The notes beneath the pieces were generated by a model, which searched no databases, had not been told where the DNA came from, and worked only from the letters and a program-made list of their open reading frames with translations. The translations under genes and the position numbers were made by a program. Shown piece after piece: positions 24,504-34,898 of a stretch of 64,000 nucleotides of DNA. Location: NCBI RefSeq assembly GCF_000023125.1, contig NC_013037.1, positions 6,426,501 through 6,490,500 on the forward strand. The letters run 5' to 3'. This DNA is from Dyadobacter fermentans DSM 18053. GTDB taxonomy: Bacteria; Bacteroidota; Bacteroidia; Cytophagales; Spirosomataceae. Every line of letters starts with the position of its first letter. Positions within the stretch are counted from its first letter, which is position 1.

Positions 24504-25013
24504 TTATTTGGCAAATGCAATCTTAATCCTTCTCACTTCCCGAATCCAGCGGGCTGGCTTTTTGTCTTTGGGCGTAATGATGCGGAACGGCCCTTCGCCG
24601 GACGGTAACGGCTGCCCGTCTTTTTCGGTAGCCAGCAAAATCACCTGGTCCGTAAATTCGGGATCGATTTCAGCCAATGCATAGAGCACTTCGTAGCCAT
24701 CCGCAGCGGTGATTAATGCATATTTGGCCAGATTTTCACCCCGCAGTTTCGCACCGGTGGTCACACCCGCTTTTTCCAGTATTTCAATCAGCGCGACGCC
24801 TTTAAACTCGTGCTCTTTGCCGTCGCGGTCTTTTACTTTCTGGCTGAACTGCTTCATTGCGGCCAGGTCTTGTACTTTCAGTTCAAGCGGCGTGGCTACT
24901 TCGCCGGAAACGGTGAGCGTGGCGGCGGTTTGTGCGTGTATCTGCGTTACGAGTGCGCACACGAGCATTGCACACAAGAGGATTTTGTTTTTGAATGTCT
25001 TGACTGCTTGCAT
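24504..25013 (-). CDS. Secreted sulfite-oxidase-fold (Oxidored_molyb-like) protein lacking the catalytic cysteine
   Basis: 169 residues with a signal peptide (ILLCAMLVCALVTQIHAQ), then a domain resembling the molybdopterin-binding fold of sulfite-oxidase-type enzymes: LTVSGEVATPLELKVQDLAAM ... HEFKGVALIEILEKAGV ... GPFRIITPKDKKPARWIREVRRI. The mature part contains no cysteine at all, so the Cys that ligates molybdenum in true family enzymes is absent. It may bind a ligand or cofactor without redox catalysis. It is the last gene of a tight run, 1 bp after the peroxidase gene, and is linked through it to a TonB receptor and a ModE-like regulator. Confidence 0.8.
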   Translation of the reverse strand: MQAVKTFKNKILLCAMLVCALVTQIHAQTAATLTVSGEVATPLELKVQDLAAMKQFSQKVKDRDGKEHEFKGVALIEILEKAGVTTGAKLRGENLAKYALITAADGYEVLYALAEIDPEFTDQVILLATEKDGQPLPSGEGPFRIITPKDKKPARWIREVRRIKIAFAK

Positions 25014-25014
25014 G

Positions 25015-26148
25015 TTATCGGGCTTTTGAAATGGAATGCGGGTTTGAAAATGCGGGATTGGTAATGAATGTCGAGTCGGTGAGCATACCGAGGAAAGCGA
25101 TGATATCCTGCTTTTCCTGCGGTTTGAGGCTCAGGTTTTTGCCATTTACTTCATTGGAAATGTCCTGTAAAAAACTGCTCAGCGTTTCGCTTTGTTGAAT
25201 GTGGTCGCTGTAATGATCGAGCACGGCTTCGATGGTTTTGAAGCGGCCGTCGTGCATGTAGGGCGCGGTGAGCAGGATGTTGCGCAGCGTCGGCACGCGG
25301 AACCGGCCTTTATCCATGGCTTGGCCGGTGATTTTTTCACGACCCAAATCGGTGAATGCGCTGTCGAGGCCATTGTTGTGAAAGAGCTCTTTGAAGGTCT
25401 TCGGGCCGCCGTGGCAATGGCCGCAGTTGGCGCCGCGAATGCCGCGTTTGGGGTCGGGGCTGTTTTCAAAAAGCTGCATTCCGCGCAGTTCGGCGGCGGT
25501 GGGCTGGTATTGGCCCGCCAGGTAGCGGTCGTAGGGTGCGTCGGCGGAAATCAAGGTGCGTTCAAACTGTGCGAGGGCTTTCAGGATATTTTGCTCGGTA
25601 ATACCGGATGCGCCAAACGCGCTGGTAAAAAGAGCGGTGTAGCGGGGCATTTTGCGCAGTTTTTTGGCCGAAACCGCCAGCGACTGGCCCATTTCGTGCG
25701 GGTCGGTGAGGGGGAATGCAGCCTGTTCTTCCAAACCCTGCGAGCGCCCGTCCCAGAAGAAGTTTCGCACCCAAAGCAGGTTCGCGAGCGACATCGAACT
25801 ACGCGGGGTGAAACTGCCGTCGACGCCCTGGCTCACAGGCCGGCCGTCGGTGAATGCGAGTTTTTGCTCGTGACAGCTTTCGCAGGATAATTGGTTGTTA
25901 GCTGAAAGCTTTTTCTCATAAAACAGCATCCTGCCGAGGTGCACGCCTTCCTGCGTGGTCGGATTGTCGGCTGGGATGGTGAACCGCGACCCGAAGTTTG
26001 CGGGGTATTTCAGTTCGTAAGGCACCGGCGTTTGGCGCGTGACCGATATCATCCCGGTGAAGACGCAGAAAGTGGCGCTCAGGATGGTAACGATCCACCC
26101 GAAACCCCTGGCCTTGTACCGCGTTAATGCCTTGCGACTTCCCGACAT
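25015..26148 (-). CDS. Di-haem cytochrome c peroxidase / MauG family protein
   Basis: 377 residues with an N-terminal membrane anchor or signal (GWIVTILSATFCVFTGMI), then two c-type haem sites: CESCHEQKLAFTDGRP at about 90-105 and CGHCHGGPKTF at about 237-247. The blocks between them (TPRSSMSLANLLWVRNFFWDGRS, FRVPTLRNILLTAPYMHDGRF) are typical of the CCP/MauG family. These act in the periplasm as peroxidases or as oxidases of protein or metal substrates. It begins 4 bp after the TonB receptor stop, so it is transcribed with that receptor, which is unusual for a simple peroxidase. Confidence 0.92.
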   Translation of the reverse strand: MSGSRKALTRYKARGFGWIVTILSATFCVFTGMISVTRQTPVPYELKYPANFGSRFTIPADNPTTQEGVHLGRMLFYEKKLSANNQLSCESCHEQKLAFTDGRPVSQGVDGSFTPRSSMSLANLLWVRNFFWDGRSQGLEEQAAFPLTDPHEMGQSLAVSAKKLRKMPRYTALFTSAFGASGITEQNILKALAQFERTLISADAPYDRYLAGQYQPTAAELRGMQLFENSPDPKRGIRGANCGHCHGGPKTFKELFHNNGLDSAFTDLGREKITGQAMDKGRFRVPTLRNILLTAPYMHDGRFKTIEAVLDHYSDHIQQSETLSSFLQDISNEVNGKNLSLKPQEKQDIIAFLGMLTDSTFITNPAFSNPHSISKAR

Positions 26149-26152
26149 TGAT

Positions 26153-28126
26153 TTAAAAATAATTGAAAACCAGGTTGATAAAGAAATTCCTTCCCGCTTC
26201 GGGAAAACCTTCGATCAAAGTATAATTCTTATCCAGAATATTGTTGATACCGGCTTCGGTAGAAATGAATTTGTACAATTTTACCGACACCTTGGCATCC
26301 AGGAGCGTGTATGCTCCTGCTTTTGTGCCATAACTCGTGCTGTAACGACTGCTATTGTTTTCCAGGCTCGCGAGCAGATTAGCTACTTTCAGGAACGAAA
26401 AGTCGGCGTAGGCGAAAACCTTGTGCTCCGGCACGTTCGTGAATGGGATCGACGGGTTGGTTTTGTTTTTCCGTTTGATAAAAGAATAGTTCGAGCCGAG
26501 TTTCAGGCCGGTGGTGATCTGATATTCAAAACCAGCTTCCGCGCCGTAGAAACGCGCTTTTCCGGCGTTTTGTAGCTGAAAGCGGTTCGGTTGTACATTG
26601 TCCACCTGCTGGATAATGTCGTCGATATTGCTTTGGAAAATGCTGGCCTGTAATGCAAGTTTATCCGCTATTTTGCCCGAATAGCTCAGGTCGAAGTTCA
26701 GGGCTACTTCGGCGTGCAGGTCGGGATTGGGGATGGCCTGGCCCATGCGGTAGGAGTAGCGGTCCTTGATCGTAGCAAACCGGGTCTTACGGGCAACGCT
26801 CCCGCGCAGCGAGTGGCTGGCGGTAATGTCCCAGAAAAGGCCGATTTGTGCATTGACGGCATTGTTTTTACTATCGGAAAAGTCGCTCAGCTCCTTGGTG
26901 GTGGCATTGTATTCCTGCGCCTGGCTTGCATTCCGGGCATTGAAACTGACGCCCGGCACCACAGCGAGCGACGGGATGATCTGGTAGGTGTTTTCGATGC
27001 CGATGGAGATCGTGTTGTCGATGTAGGATTGGACGGGTTCGCCTTTGTCGTTTTCCCGGTGGATGTCGCGCTTGTACTGAACATTGAATTTGAACACATT
27101 GTTTTCCCACGCCCGCGACTCGAATTCTGCATTTCCGCCCAATGTGTAATCATCATAAAAGCTCTGAAACGCGTATCCCTTCGTTTGCGCGGTGTAGGTC
27201 GTATCGTCGAAGCTGAACAGCGAATTCACGAAGGTGTCGTAGTACAGCCGCGTTTTGACTTTGCTTTTCGCGCCCACCGCCGTATTTGAGATAAAATAAA
27301 GACTCTGCTTGTTCCATTTCGGCCATTTCCAGAAGCGCGTGGTGATTTTGGAGTCGTCGCCCACGTACGGCGGCGTACCTTTTTCGCCGTGCTGGTTGAT
27401 GTAGCCGATCACATATTCGTCCGTTGCATTGGGCGTGAACCCGGCTTTGACACTGAATTTCAGATCGTCGCGGTAGGCATTTTCCCGGTCGTCGGTTTGC
27501 TGGAATTTGCGGGGTTTGAAATCGGCCGAAAGCGGGTAAGTATCCTGTTTTAATTGCGAAGCGCCGACCTGGTAGAAGAATTTGCCTAAACGCGAGCCGG
27601 CGTTCACATTCCAGCGGTAGCCGCCTCCACTGAAAACACCGGCGCGACCATTGATCTCGAACTTATTTACCGGCTTTCGCGACACGAGGTTGATCGCGCC
27701 GCCCATTGTGTTGGCGCCGTACAATATCGAAGCAAAGCCTTTGGAAACATTCACTTCGGCCAGGTCGAAGGTCGTGAAGCGGCCCTTGTCCACATAGCCG
27801 TCGTACGGCACGTACACGGGCACGCCGTCGATGTAAACCGGCACCTGGCGCAGGTCGAACCCGCGTACATACACCACCGACTCGTTGCGTGGGCCGACGT
27901 TCGCCATCGTCACGCCGGGTAGAATGTTCAGTGCATTGGAAAGATCGTTGCGGCTGAATTGTTCGATCGTGCGGTAGGTGAGGCGCGACGAAAGGCTGTC
28001 GCGATGGCTGATTCCGGAGACCCGCACTTCGCCAAGCTGGAAAGTTCGGTCGGTCAAAGACGACGGCTCCTGGGCCAGGGTGGGAAATACAAGCAGGGAG
28101 AGCAGCGGAAGGAGAAGTTTTCTCAT
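26153..28126 (-). CDS. TonB-dependent outer-membrane receptor, candidate molybdate/tungstate or metal-complex transporter
   Basis: A 657-residue receptor. The signal peptide ends at TLAQ; the plug begins LGEVRVSGI and includes ALNILPGVTMANVGPRNESVVYVRGFDLRQVPVYIDGVPVY and YGANTMGGAINLVSRKP; the barrel ends in NFFINLVFNYF with a terminal aromatic residue. Substrate is not shown by sequence alone. The context is informative: a ModE-box-like operator lies 8 to 31 bp before its start, a ModE-like gene lies directly upstream, and a MauG-type peroxidase and sulfite-oxidase-fold protein follow in the same operon. I infer uptake of an oxyanion or metal complex under ModE control. Confidence 0.9.
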   Translation of the reverse strand: MRKLLLPLLSLLVFPTLAQEPSSLTDRTFQLGEVRVSGISHRDSLSSRLTYRTIEQFSRNDLSNALNILPGVTMANVGPRNESVVYVRGFDLRQVPVYIDGVPVYVPYDGYVDKGRFTTFDLAEVNVSKGFASILYGANTMGGAINLVSRKPVNKFEINGRAGVFSGGGYRWNVNAGSRLGKFFYQVGASQLKQDTYPLSADFKPRKFQQTDDRENAYRDDLKFSVKAGFTPNATDEYVIGYINQHGEKGTPPYVGDDSKITTRFWKWPKWNKQSLYFISNTAVGAKSKVKTRLYYDTFVNSLFSFDDTTYTAQTKGYAFQSFYDDYTLGGNAEFESRAWENNVFKFNVQYKRDIHRENDKGEPVQSYIDNTISIGIENTYQIIPSLAVVPGVSFNARNASQAQEYNATTKELSDFSDSKNNAVNAQIGLFWDITASHSLRGSVARKTRFATIKDRYSYRMGQAIPNPDLHAEVALNFDLSYSGKIADKLALQASIFQSNIDDIIQQVDNVQPNRFQLQNAGKARFYGAEAGFEYQITTGLKLGSNYSFIKRKNKTNPSIPFTNVPEHKVFAYADFSFLKVANLLASLENNSSRYSTSYGTKAGAYTLLDAKVSVKLYKFISTEAGINNILDKNYTLIEGFPEAGRNFFINLVFNYF

Positions 28127-28133
28127 TAGAAAG

Positions 28134-28157
28134 CGATATGTACGTGTGGATATATCG
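28134..28157. promoter_or_regulatory. ModE-box-like operator upstream of the TonB receptor
   Basis: Two half-sites, CGATATGTA (28134-28142) and GATATATCG (28149-28157), are separated by six bases. This is the geometry of the ModE consensus as I recall it (CGnTATATA, N6, TATATAnCG) with one mismatch per half. The flanking bases extend the symmetry to GCGATAT / ATATCGC. It sits in the 81-bp gap between the ModE-like gene and the receptor start, so binding would block transcription of the receptor-peroxidase operon. Confidence 0.6.
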
Positions 28158-28207
28158 CAAATATAATGAGTCCCTCGTAATCTTGGGGAAAAATTTGATG
28201 GGGTTTG

Positions 28208-28552
28208 TCAGATCAATGACAAAAGATCCGGTTCTTCGGCCAATGCGGCGAGCAGTTTATCGTTCAGGCGCTTGTAGGCTTGCATGACGTTCTTCGCTGT
28301 TTCCGTGAGCACCGTACCGCCGCCCCTGGTACCGCCTTTCTGCGTGATTACATAGGGCCCTTTACCGAGGGTGTTCAGCGCGTCCACCATCGCCCAGGCT
28401 TTTTTGTACGACAGTCCCATCTCCTTGGCGGCCTGCGCGATGGAACCGGTTTCGGCTATGCGTTCGAGCAGTTCGTAACGTCCCGGTCCAAAGAATTTGA
28501 CCTCGTCCACAAACACCCAATGCCTGACCCGGATCTCGACTTTTCTTTCCAT
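28208..28552 (-). CDS. ModE-like winged-helix regulator (DNA-binding domain only)
   Basis: 114 residues matching the N-terminal domain of ModE: RYELLERIAETGSIAQAAKEMGLSYKKAWAMVDALNTLG (HTH with the ModE SYKKAW segment), then VITQKGGTRGGGTVLTETAKNVMQAYKRL. E. coli ModE continues with two TOBE/MOP domains that bind molybdate; here the protein stops after the DNA-binding part. Such short forms are common outside Proteobacteria, and how they sense metal is unclear. It is upstream of, and in the same direction as, the TonB receptor operon. Confidence 0.88.
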   Translation of the reverse strand: MERKVEIRVRHWVFVDEVKFFGPGRYELLERIAETGSIAQAAKEMGLSYKKAWAMVDALNTLGKGPYVITQKGGTRGGGTVLTETAKNVMQAYKRLNDKLLAALAEEPDLLSLI

Positions 28553-28758
28553 GCGGCAACTATTAAAGTGATTTGAGTTCTTTATTCAATGCCGCAAACT
28601 ATCATTAAATCATCAGATTTGCGCCTCAAAAGACTTCTTTAATTATTGACTGCCAGGGCTGGGTGGATGCTTTCCCGGGGTTTAATTTTGATGCCACGAA
28701 GGCACGAATACGCACGAATGCCTTCGTGTATATTCGTGCCTTCGTGGCATTAAAAAAG
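28553..28758. repeat. 28-bp-arm inverted repeat element (arms 28691-28718 and 28723-28750)
   Basis: The gap holds one striking element: arms of 28 bases beginning ATGCCACGAAGGCACGAATA at 28691, with the reverse complement ending at 28750, loop TGCC, and only two mismatched positions (CG against TA at 28711-28712). The arms also contain internal CACGAA direct repeats. It lies between the start of the ModE-like operon and the 3' end of the siderophore operon, where it may block read-through. The remaining bases, 28553-28690, show no other feature. Confidence 0.85.
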
Positions 28759-28963: not shown

Positions 28964-30139
28964 TCAGGCATTTTCTTTCTGGGCGATGACGGTCAGGATC
29001 TCCGTGTCGTTCTTGCTCAGTCGGTTGATATGTGCCTTGGTGGCTTTGTTTCGGGCAAACCATAAGTAAAGCCCGCTGCCGAGGATCACGATCGTCGCGA
29101 TGTCGAATAGCGCCCAGATGATTTTCAGCGGAAGCCCGCCGTAGTCGCCGAAATGCAATGGCTGCGAAACGAAGAGCGTGTTGACATACCACGGCATATC
29201 GCGCATATCCGTGAGCGTGCCGTTTTTGGCGTCGATCAGCGCCGGCTTGATAATGCGCTTCGTGAGTGGTGTGTTGCCTTTCATAAACACGCCGTAATGG
29301 TGTTTGCTGGTGAATGGCGTGCCCGGGTAGGCGATGATCGAAGGCTCCATTTCGGGCGCTTTGTTACGGGCGGTGGCCATGGCCTGGTCGAGCGAGCTGA
29401 GCTTGCCGGAGAGCGGCCCGGCATTTTTGTAGGGCGCCGTCATTTCCGAAAGCTGCCCCATTTGCCAAAGCCCCAGCACGATTTCCGACGCCGTGTTGAT
29501 CACGCCGGTTAGCCCTACCACCGTTCCCCAAACGATCGTCACCACGCCCAGCAGGTTATGCAGGTCGAGCCATTTCAGGCGTGTGGACCGTTGCGAGCGG
29601 ATCATGCCAAAGTCGAAACGCTTCATAATCGGCCCGTAAAGCATAATGCCTGATACGATGGCCGCCACAAACAGCAATCCCATGAGCCCCAGAAACAGCT
29701 TGCCGCCGATGCCCATGAACATATCCACGTGCAATTGGAGCATGATGTACATGAAGCCTTCCTGGTAATTAGGCTCGTCGAGCAGTTCCGCCGTATGGTC
29801 GTCCACAATCACCGTCGTGAAGTTATCCGGCGGAGCGTCAATCGAGTCCGAAAGGCTGAATGCGGTGGTATTCGGCTCGTGTTCGTCCCAATAAATGTAC
29901 CGGATCACCTTTTGCGGATATTTGGCCTGTGCGGTTTCCGCCCGCTTGTCGAGCCCGGCCAGCGGCGTGCCGGCCGGCACCTGTTTGGCCAGATGCGGCT
30001 TGCCTTCGAGTTCTTCGATTTCTTCATGGAAGATCAGCGGCAGGCCGGTGATGCAAAGCATCAGCAGGAAGGCCGTGCAGATCAGGCTCGTCCATTTGTG
30101 GATCAGGAACCAGGTTTTGATTTGCTTGACAGAGCTCAT
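28964..30139 (-). CDS. PepSY-TM inner-membrane protein (XusC-like, putative siderophore reductase)
   Basis: 391 residues. PepSY-associated membrane family: TWFLIHKWTSLICTAFLLMLCITGLPLIFHEEI at the N-terminus, about four membrane helices, histidines suited to haem (HKW, FHEE, HVDMF, DLHNLLG) and a C-terminal helix (ATIVILGSGLYLWF). Relatives are thought to reduce ferric siderophores at the inner membrane. In Bacteroides thetaiotaomicron the equivalent of this gene is XusC, encoded with XusA and XusB in the same order as here. It is 22 bp after the DUF4374 gene. Confidence 0.88.
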   Translation of the reverse strand: MSSVKQIKTWFLIHKWTSLICTAFLLMLCITGLPLIFHEEIEELEGKPHLAKQVPAGTPLAGLDKRAETAQAKYPQKVIRYIYWDEHEPNTTAFSLSDSIDAPPDNFTTVIVDDHTAELLDEPNYQEGFMYIMLQLHVDMFMGIGGKLFLGLMGLLFVAAIVSGIMLYGPIMKRFDFGMIRSQRSTRLKWLDLHNLLGVVTIVWGTVVGLTGVINTASEIVLGLWQMGQLSEMTAPYKNAGPLSGKLSSLDQAMATARNKAPEMEPSIIAYPGTPFTSKHHYGVFMKGNTPLTKRIIKPALIDAKNGTLTDMRDMPWYVNTLFVSQPLHFGDYGGLPLKIIWALFDIATIVILGSGLYLWFARNKATKAHINRLSKNDTEILTVIAQKENA

Positions 30140-30161
30140 GGGAATGGTTGTTTAAAAAAGA

Positions 30162-31370
30162 TTAGTTAGGAAGCTTTACGAAGCCCTGGATCGCGCCGTC
30201 CAGCGCTACTTTGAACACCTGCGTCGCTTTGTTGCCATCCACTATATAATAGCTTTCCAGTTTGTCGGTAGAATTTTTGACCCACAAGTAAACTTTGCCG
30301 TCGATTTCTGTGATGGCCTGTTCGTTGGCAAATGCAAATTCATGCTGGGGCATTCCTTCGATCTTCGTAATCTGCTTGGTAGTGAGGTCGTAGGTGTAGT
30401 AATCAAAAATAGGGGCATTCTGAAGGTTTGAAAAGTCGGTCTTCAAGGGAACTGACGGCGATTCAAAATAGAGTTTACCGCCTTTCACGAGCGCGGTTAC
30501 GATCGAGTTGACCGGCTGTAAGTCGTTGGTCGAAAAGGTCCAGGTTTTGTCGAAGTCCGTCTCGCCTTTTTTGATGCGGATGATCGATGTTTTGGCCAGG
30601 CCGACGTTTAATCCGGTGCTATACAGGTAGAGGGCACCGTCGTCACCGATGGTCCACATTTTGTTGCCCGACGATCCCCAGCCGATGCCTCTGATACCGT
30701 CGTATTTGATCGTTTTTTCGTACTTGTCTGTGGCCAGGTCCACCACCGCAAATTCCACAGCGTTGAACACGTCGCCGCCGAATCCTGCCAACGCCGTTGT
30801 ACTGTAAGTAATGCCAACATACAGTTTCCCCTCCTTCGCGGCGATGGTATGCTTTCCTACCGCCTGATATTCAACACCCTGCTTCTGAACGACCGACAGA
30901 TCCACTTCGCCGGTACGCAGCATGGTGGAAGGGTTGAACTTCTGAAGTTTTAAAAGGCCGCGGGTTTCGTCGAGGTAATAGCCGGTCGTTTCATTAACCA
31001 CCAGGTATTGCGTTGATCCGGCAATGAAACCTTCGTCTTTCAAACTGCCGTCCGCATTGAGCGAATATTTTTGAAGTCCTGTCTCGCCGGCTGCATTGGT
31101 GCGGTTGAAAAACCACTTGCCAAATGTCCGGAAACCAAATGCCTGCTTCACCTGAAGGGATTTGGGATTGGTAGCCTGGATCGTCCCCGATGGAAGGCCA
31201 TCCAGCGCCGTGAAATAGCCCGCTCCGAAGCGTTCGATCGACGTCATCAGTACGTATTTGTCTTTCGTTTCGGGAGTGGGCGTGGTGCCGTCGTTATCGT
31301 CCGACGAGCAGCCGAGGAATGCCGTAAATGCAAGGCCGAAAAGGAGTGATCTGAACAAAGATGTTTTCAT
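30162..31370 (-). CDS. DUF4374 surface lipoprotein (XusB-like siderophore-binding propeller)
   Basis: 402 residues with a lipoprotein signal (LFGLAFTAFLGC, Cys21) followed by SSDDNDG, an acidic tail that matches the Bacteroidota surface-export signal. The rest is repetitive beta structure typical of DUF4374 (YVLMTSIERFGAGYFTALDGLPSG ... FGFRTFGKWFFNRTN). In B. thetaiotaomicron XusB, a protein of this family, captures ferric enterobactin at the cell surface for import by XusA. The gene sits 24 bp after the receptor gene and 22 bp before the PepSY gene. Confidence 0.88.
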   Translation of the reverse strand: MKTSLFRSLLFGLAFTAFLGCSSDDNDGTTPTPETKDKYVLMTSIERFGAGYFTALDGLPSGTIQATNPKSLQVKQAFGFRTFGKWFFNRTNAAGETGLQKYSLNADGSLKDEGFIAGSTQYLVVNETTGYYLDETRGLLKLQKFNPSTMLRTGEVDLSVVQKQGVEYQAVGKHTIAAKEGKLYVGITYSTTALAGFGGDVFNAVEFAVVDLATDKYEKTIKYDGIRGIGWGSSGNKMWTIGDDGALYLYSTGLNVGLAKTSIIRIKKGETDFDKTWTFSTNDLQPVNSIVTALVKGGKLYFESPSVPLKTDFSNLQNAPIFDYYTYDLTTKQITKIEGMPQHEFAFANEQAITEIDGKVYLWVKNSTDKLESYYIVDGNKATQVFKVALDGAIQGFVKLPN

Positions 31371-31394
31371 GATTTTGGTTGTAAAATGGATAAT

Positions 31395-33782
31395 TTATTT
31401 GAGGGTATAGTTGACTTTCAAATGGAGACTGCGGCCGGCATTCTGAATCCGGAAATTGTCGTAAACGTTGGTATTGAAGATGTTTTTAGCCTGAAAACCA
31501 ACGGAAAAGCGATCGTTCACCGGGTGGTAGGTAAAGCCCAAAGAGTGCAATGCCTGGCTCGGGATAATGTTGGGCGCCTCGAATTTGGCCTTTCCCCAAA
31601 GCCCGAGGAAACCGTCCGGTTCGAGGGATTTCGGGATGTAGTCGAGGTAGTATTCGCGGACAAACGTGAAATAGTAATACAGCTGCAAACGTCCCTTTCC
31701 CGGCATGCGGGTGATATTGGCATTCAGGCCAAGGTTGGCGAAGAAATAGGGCGTATTGCGTAGCCTGGCATCCTCCGTCAGGCGGTTGCCGGTGTCGAAC
31801 ACGCGGAAATCCTGGTAGGTGAAATTGCCGTTTGCGCGCAGCCAGCGGGTAAGGTTCACGTTCAGGTCGGTTTCCAGCCCGAGGCCTTTCACATTGCTTA
31901 CGTTCTGGTTTTGGGTGAACAGGAAATCGATCGGCATTTTGAGGATCAGGTCGCGGGTAATGCGATAAAATGCATTGATTTCCAGGTTGTAAGCATTGCG
32001 TTTCTCGGTACGGAAGCCGGCATTGATATTCACGCTCTTTTCCGGTTTGAGTAAAAAGTTGGAGCGGTGGAAATTACCGTCGCCGAACATTTCGTCCTGC
32101 TCGGGCAGGCGCGTGGCCACCTCGGCCGAAACCCTGAAAAACGTAGAAGGCGTAACGGCCAGTTTCAAAGCCTCCGCAATGCCGAAACTGCCGTCGGAAG
32201 TGTACCGGTGCTCGCCCAATGCGGAGCCGTAGACGTCCACATTAATGGTAGACGTGTTGTAATAATAGTATTTGGCAATCAGGTGATTGGTCAGTTTTTC
32301 ATCCCAAAATACGGATTGCAGGCCGGCAGCGCCTACCAGTTTGTAATACTTTGCCGGAAGCGAAAGAATATCCTGCCCCGTCTGCGGAAGTTTCAGGCCC
32401 CTCGGGTCGTTCCCGTCGCGGCCAATGTTGGTCGATACCACGTTGATTTCCGCCTTGTGCACGTCATTGAACCGGTATCCGACGTGTGTGCGGCTCGTGA
32501 AGTAGAAAAAAGTAATGTCCGAGAGGCTGCCGGTGGCTGTAATCTCGCCCTGGCGGGACGGGCTCGGGATGAATTTGCCAAACCAATCGTAGGTTCCGCG
32601 AGCGGTGTCCACCTGCTGGGTATGGATATTACTCACGGTGAGGAACTGGTCCAGGCTCAGTCGGTTGAATGCCTTGCGGTAGCGCAGGGTAGGGATCACC
32701 GAGTATTGCCTGCTCAACGCCGCCCCGAACGGCTGCGACATCGAGGAGCCATACTGGTTTTGCCGGTTAATGCGGAACCACGTCACGCCCACGCGCAGCT
32801 CATCGGCCCAGCGCTTGCCTGTCAGCCCGCCGTATGCTTCGGCATAGTAATTGGTGAATTGGTTATGGAAAAGCCGTACGGTGGCGTCGCGGCGGGCGGC
32901 GGTTTCGTGGTCGGTGACGGTTACGTCCACTTTGTAATTATTGTCGGAACGGTTCACGAATGCGTCGCCGCCGATGAAAAAATGGCGTGTGGTATCCGTG
33001 TAGAGCCCATTCAGCGACGCACGGTGGGTGTTGAACGAAGCGATTTCGTACGACGCCTCGGCATAGCGGTACAGCGATTTCTTGGTTACCAGGTTCACCG
33101 CCCCGCCCAGCGCATCCGCGCCCAGGTTGGTGGGCAGCACGCCCTTGTACACCTCTACGCGTTCGAGCATATTTACAGGCACGAGCCCGATGTTGTAGCC
33201 TGCACCGAGGTAATCCATCGGAATACCATCTTTGAAATTCTTGATCGCGCGGTCCTGGAAACCATTCATCATCAGGCCCGCATTGGACCCGAGGCCGCCC
33301 GTCTGGCGAATCCGGATGCCCGCCGAGCGGTTCATCAGTTCTACGAGCGTGGAGGGCTGCTCCTGCACCGCCCGGGTGTTGATCACCTCCGCTTTGATGG
33401 GCTGCAACCGCGCTTCCTGGGTTTCGGTGCGGCCGGTAACCTGCACTTCCGAGAGCTGTTTGGGGTCGTCTTTCAATGTTAAAACCAATGGTTGCGACAA
33501 ATCCCCAAACGCCACCGTGCGGCTCACCTCCACAAAACCAATGTGCCGCGCACTCACCGCATAGCTGCTGCGGCGCGGGACACTGAGTGTGAATTCTCCT
33601 TTTTCGTTGGTAATTTCATGAAGATCCAGTTTCGAGATCGAGACAGAGGCGCCTGCCAGCGGCTCGCCCCGCTGATCTTTTACCAACCCCTGTATTTTAT
33701 AACTATCTTGTGCAGAAGATGTTATAGGGGAAATGCAAGCCAGTGTAATAAAAAATCGTAACAGGAGGAGGAAAGGTCTCAA
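31395..33782 (-). CDS. TonB-dependent siderophore-type receptor (XusA-like)
   Basis: 795 residues. A signal peptide (FFITLACISPITSSAQ) precedes a carboxypeptidase-regulatory domain (IQGLVKDQRGEPLAGASVSISKLDL), a plug (SEVQVTGRTETQEARLQPI ... LMNRSAGIRIRQTGGLGS ... LPTNLGADALGGAVNLVTKKS) and a beta-barrel ending SLHLKVNYTLK. First gene of a minus-strand operon with DUF4374 and PepSY-TM genes, the XusABC arrangement for xenosiderophore use. A divergent AraC regulator starts 118 bp away, so the shared gap (33783-33899) probably holds iron- or siderophore-dependent promoters. Confidence 0.93.
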   Translation of the reverse strand: MRPFLLLLRFFITLACISPITSSAQDSYKIQGLVKDQRGEPLAGASVSISKLDLHEITNEKGEFTLSVPRRSSYAVSARHIGFVEVSRTVAFGDLSQPLVLTLKDDPKQLSEVQVTGRTETQEARLQPIKAEVINTRAVQEQPSTLVELMNRSAGIRIRQTGGLGSNAGLMMNGFQDRAIKNFKDGIPMDYLGAGYNIGLVPVNMLERVEVYKGVLPTNLGADALGGAVNLVTKKSLYRYAEASYEIASFNTHRASLNGLYTDTTRHFFIGGDAFVNRSDNNYKVDVTVTDHETAARRDATVRLFHNQFTNYYAEAYGGLTGKRWADELRVGVTWFRINRQNQYGSSMSQPFGAALSRQYSVIPTLRYRKAFNRLSLDQFLTVSNIHTQQVDTARGTYDWFGKFIPSPSRQGEITATGSLSDITFFYFTSRTHVGYRFNDVHKAEINVVSTNIGRDGNDPRGLKLPQTGQDILSLPAKYYKLVGAAGLQSVFWDEKLTNHLIAKYYYYNTSTINVDVYGSALGEHRYTSDGSFGIAEALKLAVTPSTFFRVSAEVATRLPEQDEMFGDGNFHRSNFLLKPEKSVNINAGFRTEKRNAYNLEINAFYRITRDLILKMPIDFLFTQNQNVSNVKGLGLETDLNVNLTRWLRANGNFTYQDFRVFDTGNRLTEDARLRNTPYFFANLGLNANITRMPGKGRLQLYYYFTFVREYYLDYIPKSLEPDGFLGLWGKAKFEAPNIIPSQALHSLGFTYHPVNDRFSVGFQAKNIFNTNVYDNFRIQNAGRSLHLKVNYTLK

Positions 33783-33899
33783 TGGTCTGTTAATTTTACT
33801 TAATTAAGACTGTTTAAAAATAACGGCAAATGTACCGATCTGCCCCCGGGTGCGGTTAACGTCAAAAGCAGTATTAATGCCGCCAAAAACAGGACTTTG

Positions 33900-34898
33900 A
33901 TGAAAATCGTATTCACTTCGGAAGAATTTGCGGAACTCAACTTCGAGCGGGGATATTCGGAGGGCTTCGGCGTGGCCGACCGGTCGGGTATTTGGGAGGA
34001 AAAGAGTGAGTACAGCCACCTGGGCATGTATTCCCGCATTCACCGGATCTTTTGTCCGGGGATCATCATTTCCATGGCGGAGGGAATGCTGGACCGCGAC
34101 CTGGTGCAAATCCTCGAAAGCGATTTTCCTTACCTGCAAATGCATTTCGAGCTTTCCACCACCGGATGCCTGTACATTCCGCAAGCCGAGGCCGAAATCG
34201 AAACGGTGATTTACGGCGGCACGCATTCGCTGCTCTTTTACCCGGCGCTGAAAGGCCGCCTGCATTATCTCAAAAAACCGATGTCGCAGAGCGTCGAAAT
34301 AGAATTGTCGCTCGATTTCCTGCGCCGGCTGTTTCATAACGACCTGGAGGTGCTGGGCGAGTTTGGGAAGAACATCGAGCAAAACCAGCCGGCGATCATG
34401 GGAAGCCGCAGCTTTCCGATCACCCAGGCGATGAAAAGGCTGCTGGCGGAAATACGGGACTGCCCCTACACCGGCGCATTGAAAAAGGCTTTTATCGAAG
34501 CAAAAGTGATTGAACTGCTCACGATGCAGATCGGTCAGATCAACGCCGCGGAGCCTGGACGGAAAAGCCTCAAACGGTCGGATATCGACAAGCTCCACGA
34601 GGTGAAAAACCTGCTTTTGCGCAACATCGAAAACCCGTTTTCAATCGAAGAACTTGCCCGTGTGGCGGGGCTGAACCGGACCAAATTGCAGGAAGGGTTC
34701 AAGGAGCTTTTCGGGACAACCGTTTTCGGCTACATTGCCGATACCCGGCTCGAAGAAGCCCGGAGGCACATTCTCGACCCGGGTTCGGCGCTTTCAATCG
34801 GTGAAATTGCAGCGCTTTCCGGCTATAAAAACCCGCAGCATTTCACGGCTGCATTCAAGAAAAAATTCGGTTATCTCCCCCGCGACGCCCGCCGCTAA
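33900..34898 (+). CDS. AraC-family transcriptional regulator (PchR-like)
   Basis: 332 residues with the two-helix AraC DNA-binding domain at the C-terminus: NPFSIEELARVAGLNRTKLQEGFKELFGTTVFGYIADTRLEEARRHI ... SIGEIAALSGYKNPQHFTAAFKKKFGYLP. The N-terminal half (ISMAEGMLDRDLVQIL ... FELSTTG) resembles PchR-type regulators, which sense ferric siderophore in the cytoplasm. It is divergent from the XusABC-like operon and probably activates it. The ATG at 33900 is preferred over the TTG at 33897. Confidence 0.9.
   Translation: MKIVFTSEEFAELNFERGYSEGFGVADRSGIWEEKSEYSHLGMYSRIHRIFCPGIIISMAEGMLDRDLVQILESDFPYLQMHFELSTTGCLYIPQAEAEIETVIYGGTHSLLFYPALKGRLHYLKKPMSQSVEIELSLDFLRRLFHNDLEVLGEFGKNIEQNQPAIMGSRSFPITQAMKRLLAEIRDCPYTGALKKAFIEAKVIELLTMQIGQINAAEPGRKSLKRSDIDKLHEVKNLLLRNIENPFSIEELARVAGLNRTKLQEGFKELFGTTVFGYIADTRLEEARRHILDPGSALSIGEIAALSGYKNPQHFTAAFKKKFGYLPRDARR

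Follow-up and report, generated by a model that had tools for sequence, protein, structure and literature searches.

A candidate ModE-repressed, TonB-dependent molybdenum acquisition cluster in Dyadobacter fermentans and other Bacteroidota

A cluster of four genes in Dyadobacter fermentans DSM 18053 probably encodes a ModE-repressed, TonB-dependent outer-membrane system for the acquisition of molybdenum, or of molybdenum and tungsten. It lies in a window of 64,000 nucleotides (nt), the whole stretch of DNA analysed here (GCF_000023125.1; NC_013037.1, positions 6,426,501-6,490,500), and comprises genes for a ModE-type winged-helix DNA-binding protein, a TonB-dependent outer-membrane receptor (TonB1), a MauG/MbnH-type di-haem protein and a small exported protein of sulfite-oxidase/PruR fold (Moly). 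A preliminary description of this DNA had proposed a ModE-controlled molybdenum system at the outer membrane. Our comparisons strongly support that proposal through a predicted operator ahead of the receptor, the same type of box ahead of molybdoenzyme and moeA genes in relatives, and modABC or molybdenum cofactor (Moco) genes as neighbours; it is weakened by a regulator that lacks a known molybdate sensor. The usual account of molybdenum uptake begins at periplasmic ModA, and to our knowledge the crossing of the outer membrane by molybdenum is scarcely known, with hardly any transporter described. With a TonB receptor cassette conserved behind ModE-type boxes across many Bacteroidota, the idea of TonB-dependent molybdenum uptake can be put to a direct test.

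The four open reading frames (ORFs) run in one direction on the minus strand, just as the preliminary description had it: modE (28208-28552; 114 amino acids (aa)), the receptor gene (26153-28126; 657 aa), the di-haem protein gene (25015-26148; 377 aa) and the Moly gene (24504-25013; 169 aa), with intergenic gaps of 81, 4 and 1 nt, respectively. Pfam and NCBIfam scans support each of the four gene names, the receptor featuring both Plug (PF07715, E 6e-19) and barrel (PF00593, E 4.5e-30) domains. The order is not attributable to chance because it recurs in relatives with unrelated flanks. Since the predicted operator sits between modE and the receptor gene, the receptor, MauG and Moly genes probably form an operon of their own and modE is probably transcribed separately.

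The first gene had been described as encoding a ModE-type helix-turn-helix protein, which holds, although the product consists of the DNA-binding domain alone. The ModE winged-helix domain is matched over residues 21-100 by TIGR00637 ModE_repress (E 1.4e-24; 86 bits, below the cut-off of 98.5), and HTH_1 (E 2.3e-6) is the sole Pfam domain. The molybdate-sensing TOBE/Mop domains are missing, and we therefore file the product as a ModE-type DNA-binding protein rather than a canonical ModE.

The predicted operator and its distribution

Comparison of the sequence downstream of modE among relatives uncovered a 24-nt palindrome, CGATAT-N12-ATATCG, at 28134-28157 in the window. On the minus strand it reads CGATATATCCACACGTACATATCG and ends 7 nt ahead of the receptor start codon. 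It stands immediately 3' of, and abuts, a promoter-like element, TATATTTG (28158-28165, minus strand), of the pattern TAnnTTTG, which may represent a Bacteroidota -7 box. Of the 60 loci of named relatives with a box ahead of the receptor (described below), 22 have this pattern at the box or next to it, relative to 3% in shuffles of the same stretches. The E. coli ModE consensus, as given in the accessible text of a 2004 comparative study, is ATCGNTATATA-[N6]-TATATANCGAT (PMC545781); its central 24 positions, CGNTATATA-N6-TATATANCG, match the window once, at this palindrome, with 2 mismatches, and none of 100 shuffles contained a match as good. The stricter box pattern derived from the genus has a single exact copy in the 7-Mb genome, which is the site ahead of the receptor.

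Within the genus set of 37 genomes (36 besides the window's own, taken as Dyadobacter; close Moly relatives carry that name), the exact box pattern is present in 24 and the short ModE in 25. Both occur together in 23 genomes, ModE alone in 2, the box alone in 1 and neither in 11, such that the box accompanies 23/25 genomes with the short ModE vs 1/12 without it (Fisher p 1e-6). Moly follows a similar distribution, at 22/25 (one a fragment, G006) vs 1/12 (p 5e-6). A full-length receptor is encoded in 17 of the 37; it adjoins modE in 14 of them, whereas in G022, G024 and G026 it lies elsewhere. At the level of individual loci, extended mapping covered 24 of 27 genus ModE loci together with two loci of other genera. 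A box follows modE in all 17 mapped loci where receptor, MauG or Moly, some of them decayed, comes next, and in none of the seven mapped genus loci where no such gene follows; the three genus loci outside the mapped set (G011, G003, G028) have both receptor and box.

Overall, 27 of the 34 genus box sites precede a receptor, MauG or Moly gene (again including decayed copies), and a reversed-pattern control yielded one site in the genus. The box also accompanies receptor or Moly where these stand apart from modE, in G022, G024 (two sites), G026, G019 (362 nt upstream of the gene), G023 and G031. Three further sites, in three genomes, lie 150-351 nt upstream of a molybdoenzyme gene pair with MoCoBD domains in all (Pfam); a preceding [2Fe-2S] gene was identified in G010, the only one of these scanned for it, and the G023 site overlaps the 3' end of a DUF3095 gene. 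Of the remaining placements, one is 9 nt ahead of an 863-aa TonB receptor of a second type (G016), another is 45 nt ahead of a PF03601 membrane protein gene in G026 (L209 4070-5341), and two of the 34 sites fall inside ORFs. In a genome of another genus (G040), a box lies 21 nt ahead of a 915-aa TonB receptor gene.

In several genera, such second, longer TonB receptors (~850-915 aa) are preceded by a ModE-type box or a short modE gene (L208 4046-6793, L215 1400-3991, L144 6318-8879, L054 7372-9990), and they may be another type of molybdenum receptor. Decayed copies of the four-gene cluster were also observed (L090 on G030:C15, L049 and L040), with receptor and MauG broken or truncated and Moly at full length in L090 and L049, a pattern that suggests duplication and loss. 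G015 does not fit the pattern: it retains MauG and a remnant of the receptor but has neither ModE nor Moly nor a box.

The association extends well beyond the genus. A receptor-alignment scan of named genomes gave 455 relatives, of which the best 80 were examined; 66 of these 80 loci are outside Dyadobacter, in Emticicia, Runella, Spirosoma, Larkinella, Fibrisoma, Pedobacter, Chitinophaga, many Flavobacterium and others. Receptor orthologues usually found without modE was an outcome that the preliminary description had named as speaking against it; instead, modE is present in 58/80 loci, directly before the receptor in 48, and Moly is downstream of the receptor in 68/80, the counts of 58 and 68 being possible underestimates for several loci on contigs that end near the receptor. 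MauG is near in 38/80, modABC in 8/80 and Moco genes in 3/80. A perfect CNNTAT-N12-ATANNG palindrome, a form picked after the sites had been viewed, occurs at most 350 nt upstream of the receptor in 60/80 loci, relative to 357/20000 random windows of the same loci and 16/16000 shuffled upstream stretches. The published consensus (PMC545781), applied within 2 mismatches, is found upstream in 23/80 loci and in 0.4% of random windows. Half-sites in the 60 palindromes are CGATAT (20), CGTTAT (16), CAGTAT (23, all Flavobacterium) and CACTAT (1); these differences are largely clade-wise and so suggest that operator and regulator changed together across clades. Separately, one contig filed as Thalassovita, of the Pseudomonadota (L230), carries the whole Dyadobacter-type four-gene cluster and is likely a mis-binned metagenome contig.

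In a phylum sample of 395 Bacteroidota genomes, ModE-domain relatives occur in 103, many of them, in one family, with an ORF long enough for full-length ModE, and Moly relatives in 27. Fifteen of the 26 Moly loci found besides the window's were mapped; 11 of the 15 lie near ModE, receptor, MauG, mod or Moco genes, and four (G305, G331, G339, G380) have none of these nearby, although in G305 a box stands ahead of Moly. Similarly, 19 of 24 mapped short-ModE loci lie near receptor, Moly, mod or Moco genes. Four (G443, G246, G155, G305) are without such neighbours, G155 nonetheless having an exact box, and a fifth (G278), with an unscanned receptor-sized neighbour, was left unclassed. In G258, a single strand encodes ModE, a second receptor, TonB1, MauG, Moly, ModA, a TOBE protein, ModB and ModC; the order in G226 is ModA-TOBE-ModB-ModC-ModE-MauG-Moly, G194 has Moly-ModABC adjoining Moco genes, G052 ModABC-Moly and G116 ModE-receptor-Moly. 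The short ModE is also found in seven moeA/Moco loci (G238, G368, G144, G282, G159, G210 and a second copy in G258), which are preceded by CGNTAT-N12-ATANCG boxes; five of these are exact and the other two deviate at one position.

Relatives of the cassette are present as well in another class of the phylum, one with canonical full-length ModE. There, G332, G177 and G090 encode a full-length ModE with two TOBE domains elsewhere in the genome, and each has a receptor gene, with Moly next in line, downstream of a box that is exact in G177 and has one mismatch in G332 and in G090. The G332 receptor is close to TonB1 (527 bits); those of G177 (46 bits) and G090 (61 bits) are distant. Two phylum relatives have a gene for a stand-alone TOBE (Mop-like) protein between modA and modB (L144 1049-1450, L154 9994-10398), and ModE there seems to be split into separate DNA-binding and sensing proteins.

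Moly and its di-haem neighbour

Moly carries an Oxidored_molyb domain (E 1.3e-11) and has the SUOX fold. Its AlphaFold2 model (mean predicted local distance difference test score, pLDDT, 92.1) gave PruR as the top Foldseek match in the PDB (E 5.7e-8), with sulfite oxidase family chains next, and Z scores of 18.7 against chicken sulfite oxidase, 17.9 against SoxCD and 17.4 against PruR. An N-terminal hydrophobic segment suggests that the protein is exported. The preliminary description had reported a protein with no cysteine (Cys), which is true of the mature part; two Cys lie within the N-terminal hydrophobic stretch. The molybdenum-ligating Cys of the sulfite oxidase family is missing from mature Moly, as is the loop that bears it, the corresponding loop being ~20 residues shorter than that of sulfite dehydrogenase. 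A small exported SUOX fold without this Cys is the PruR type. The coupling of PruR-type genes to a DcpA-type cyclic di-GMP (c-di-GMP) enzyme is not seen at the window locus, where the neighbours of Moly are MauG and an opposite-strand phosphodiesterase-type PF01663 gene, neither with a c-di-GMP domain. The modelled fold is about equally like PruR and sulfite oxidase. For Moly, a role in binding is more likely than catalysis of the sulfite oxidase kind.

Not all Moly proteins are alike in this loop. In the 68 named loci with a Moly match (the other 12 of the 80 were excluded, and the L224 and L251 matches are partial), 41 proteins have the short, Cys-less loop; in the remaining 27 the loop is longer by seven residues and, in 26 of these, contains a Cys. 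From the alignment and the strand order of a second model, the Cys of the long-loop form appears to sit at the molybdenum-ligand position of sulfite oxidase.

Loop type tracks the presence of the di-haem gene: MauG is in the locus for 37/41 Cys-less short-loop Moly vs 0/27 long-loop Moly. On the receptor tree, MauG presence requires at least seven changes on supported branches, and MauG and Moly loop type change together between closely related receptors, for example those of Flavobacterium sp. HJJ and F. fluviatile; the tree provides four independent contrasts for this association, too few for significance. The di-haem protein itself matches CCP_MauG (PF03150, E 6.8e-58) and has haem motifs CESCH at residue 89 and CGHCH at residue 242, two CxxCH motifs being common to all 37 of its relatives scoring above 300 bits. 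Its best NCBIfam model is the MbnH family TIGR04039, at 263 bits against a cut-off of 363, and it scores 187 bits against the MauG family, for which the cut-off is 444.

The proposed route and its alternatives

We propose that, when molybdenum is sufficient, the short ModE would bind the 28134-28157 palindrome, covering the presumed transcription start, and block the receptor-MauG-Moly operon. Under molybdenum scarcity, the TonB receptor would import molybdenum into the periplasm; complexed molybdenum is a likelier cargo than free molybdate, given that energized receptors usually serve bulky or scarce ligands. Moly may then bind the incoming molybdenum complex or a pterin-like ligand, and the metal would be handed on as molybdate to ModABC, which in D. 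fermentans is encoded away from the cluster and in some relatives adjoins it. The MauG/MbnH-type enzyme, by its association with Cys-less Moly, could oxidize either Moly, building its binding site, or the cargo, releasing molybdate.

Several observations weigh against this proposal. On the side of the regulator, a search of the D. fermentans genome found no TOBE domain (the same search was positive in 12 of 14 control genomes), and neither the modABC nor the moaA loci of D. fermentans have the box even at one mismatch, so the transporter itself seems to stand outside the ModE-box regulon there. The box is also less distinctive when relaxed: with two mismatches the genus pattern occurs in 29/100 shuffled windows, and the D. 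fermentans genome holds 29 two-mismatch sites and 1 one-mismatch site, relative to 4 for the reversed-pattern control. Among the named loci, the published consensus (PMC545781) at up to 4 mismatches fits just 38/80 (random windows 1.8%), and the Flavobacterium half-site differs from that of the genus. The cluster is dispensable, since ModB and MoaA are encoded in all 37 genus genomes, yet the short ModE occurs in 25 and the full-length receptor in 17. G007 (L037) and G034 (L046) retain a short modE, and searches of both found no Moly, full-length receptor or exact box. Several genus loci (G011, G012, G013, L219, L220) have a damaged MauG gene or none at all, and since loci of this kind keep the receptor, MauG is not indispensable. 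Finally, TonB1 is closest in sequence to receptors for B12, haem and siderophores.

Alternatives to molybdenum acquisition differ mainly in the cargo. Salvage of molybdopterin, Moco or another pterin, in which the receptor would import a pterin or pterin-bound molybdenum and Moly would be the periplasmic pterin binder, is unlikely. A bolder reading, which we advance tentatively and also consider unlikely, envisages surface capture of an organic molybdenum complex, possibly pterin-bound or Moco itself, through the ModE-repressed TonB receptor, with a SUOX-fold protein as periplasmic receiver; in one Moly lineage, MauG-type oxidation of protein or cargo would replace the Cys ligand.

A cluster regulated by molybdenum that imports something else, such as an iron, copper or haem compound, is doubtful. 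MbnH-type enzymes belong to copper systems, and the di-haem protein is nearest to the MbnH family; the receptor resembles those for siderophores, haem and B12; and siderophore-type TonB-PepSY genes flank the cluster in the window and in close relatives. Against this, the flanks are conserved in close relatives only, and what recurs more widely is modE, Moly, the box and, at lower frequency, modABC or Moco genes. Tungstate as the physiological cargo, in place of molybdate, is distinctly improbable: known ModE-type proteins and oxyanion transporters handle both metals, whereas the boxes of relatives precede xanthine-dehydrogenase-family genes and moeA operons (tungsten enzymes were not searched for). 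A sulfite-oxidase-like respiratory module, with Moly catalytic, MauG as its electron acceptor and the receptor unrelated, would account for an Oxidored_molyb domain next to a c-type haem protein, and is highly improbable given a Moly with a shortened loop and no Cys ligand, and MauG absent from 42/80 receptor loci where Moly is present in 68/80.

Known systems and neighbouring features

The closest regulatory parallel to the proposed molybdenum system is the ModE/modABC regulon of the E. coli and Geobacter type (PMC545781, accessible text), with which it shares the helix-turn-helix domain, a 24-nt palindromic core and the half-site pattern; in relatives, modABC and molybdenum genes are also among its targets or lie close by. 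It differs in that the D. fermentans regulator lacks a molybdate-binding domain, its target is an outer-membrane receptor operon, its own modABC is box-free, and the half-site is CGATAT in D. fermentans and CAGTAT in Flavobacterium. Desulfovibrio has a single-domain ModE that likewise consists of the DNA-binding domain only, and the accessible text of the same study calls its sensing mechanism unclear; its operator, CGGTCACG-N14-CGTGACCG, is unlike the D. fermentans box, and that text does not mention a TonB receptor (PMC545781).

Moly and PruR (PDB 7kom, 7kos, 7rkb; PMC13259868) share size, export, a truncated SUOX fold and the absence of the molybdenum-ligating Cys. According to the accessible part of that report, the partner of PruR is the c-di-GMP enzyme DcpA (PMC13259868), whereas the genes associated with Moly are those of a TonB receptor, ModE and, at some loci, modABC; moreover, a related form of Moly carries a Cys in the loop concerned, unlike PruR. 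If the molybdenum proposal is correct, it would provide a function for proteins annotated as 'molybdopterin-dependent oxidoreductase' that lack the molybdenum-ligating Cys.

MbnH/MbnP and MauG systems perform post-translational oxidation and resemble the cluster described here in that a di-haem enzyme with two CxxCH motifs accompanies both a small exported partner and a TonB receptor. Unlike in those systems, the partner here has a SUOX fold and is neither MbnP nor methylamine dehydrogenase, the enzyme falls below the cut-offs of both families, and the metal is probably molybdenum rather than the copper of MbnH systems. The molybdenum proposal, if true, would thus add a new partner pairing for MauG/MbnH-type enzymes.

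At the outer membrane, the nearest dedicated molybdate route that we found is that of Pseudomonas aeruginosa, where ModA secreted by the H2 type VI secretion system (H2-T6SS) and the outer-membrane protein IcmP acquire molybdate (PMC11734730, PMC9769707); the accessible parts of these reports do not mention a TonB receptor operon under a ModE box as in D. fermentans. Our literature search for TonB-dependent molybdate or tungstate uptake, ModE-TonB regulons, molybdenum siderophore receptors and combinations of MauG, TonB and molybdopterin, which covered mostly titles and the beginnings of abstracts and few subscription journals, returned no TonB-dependent molybdenum receptor.

Beyond modE, the window features a PepSY membrane protein, a seemingly exported protein that belongs to no Pfam family and an MxcH-like TonB receptor, all on the minus strand at 28964-33782. 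The receptor resembles the myxochelin receptor MxcH (414 bits, cut-off 925), and together with an AraC regulator at 33897-34898 on the plus strand these genes look like a siderophore uptake module adjoining the cluster. Between this module and modE, a long intergenic inverted repeat (ATGCCACGAAGGCACGAAT..., mirrored) at ~28692-28755, upstream of modE, looks like a repetitive extragenic palindrome.

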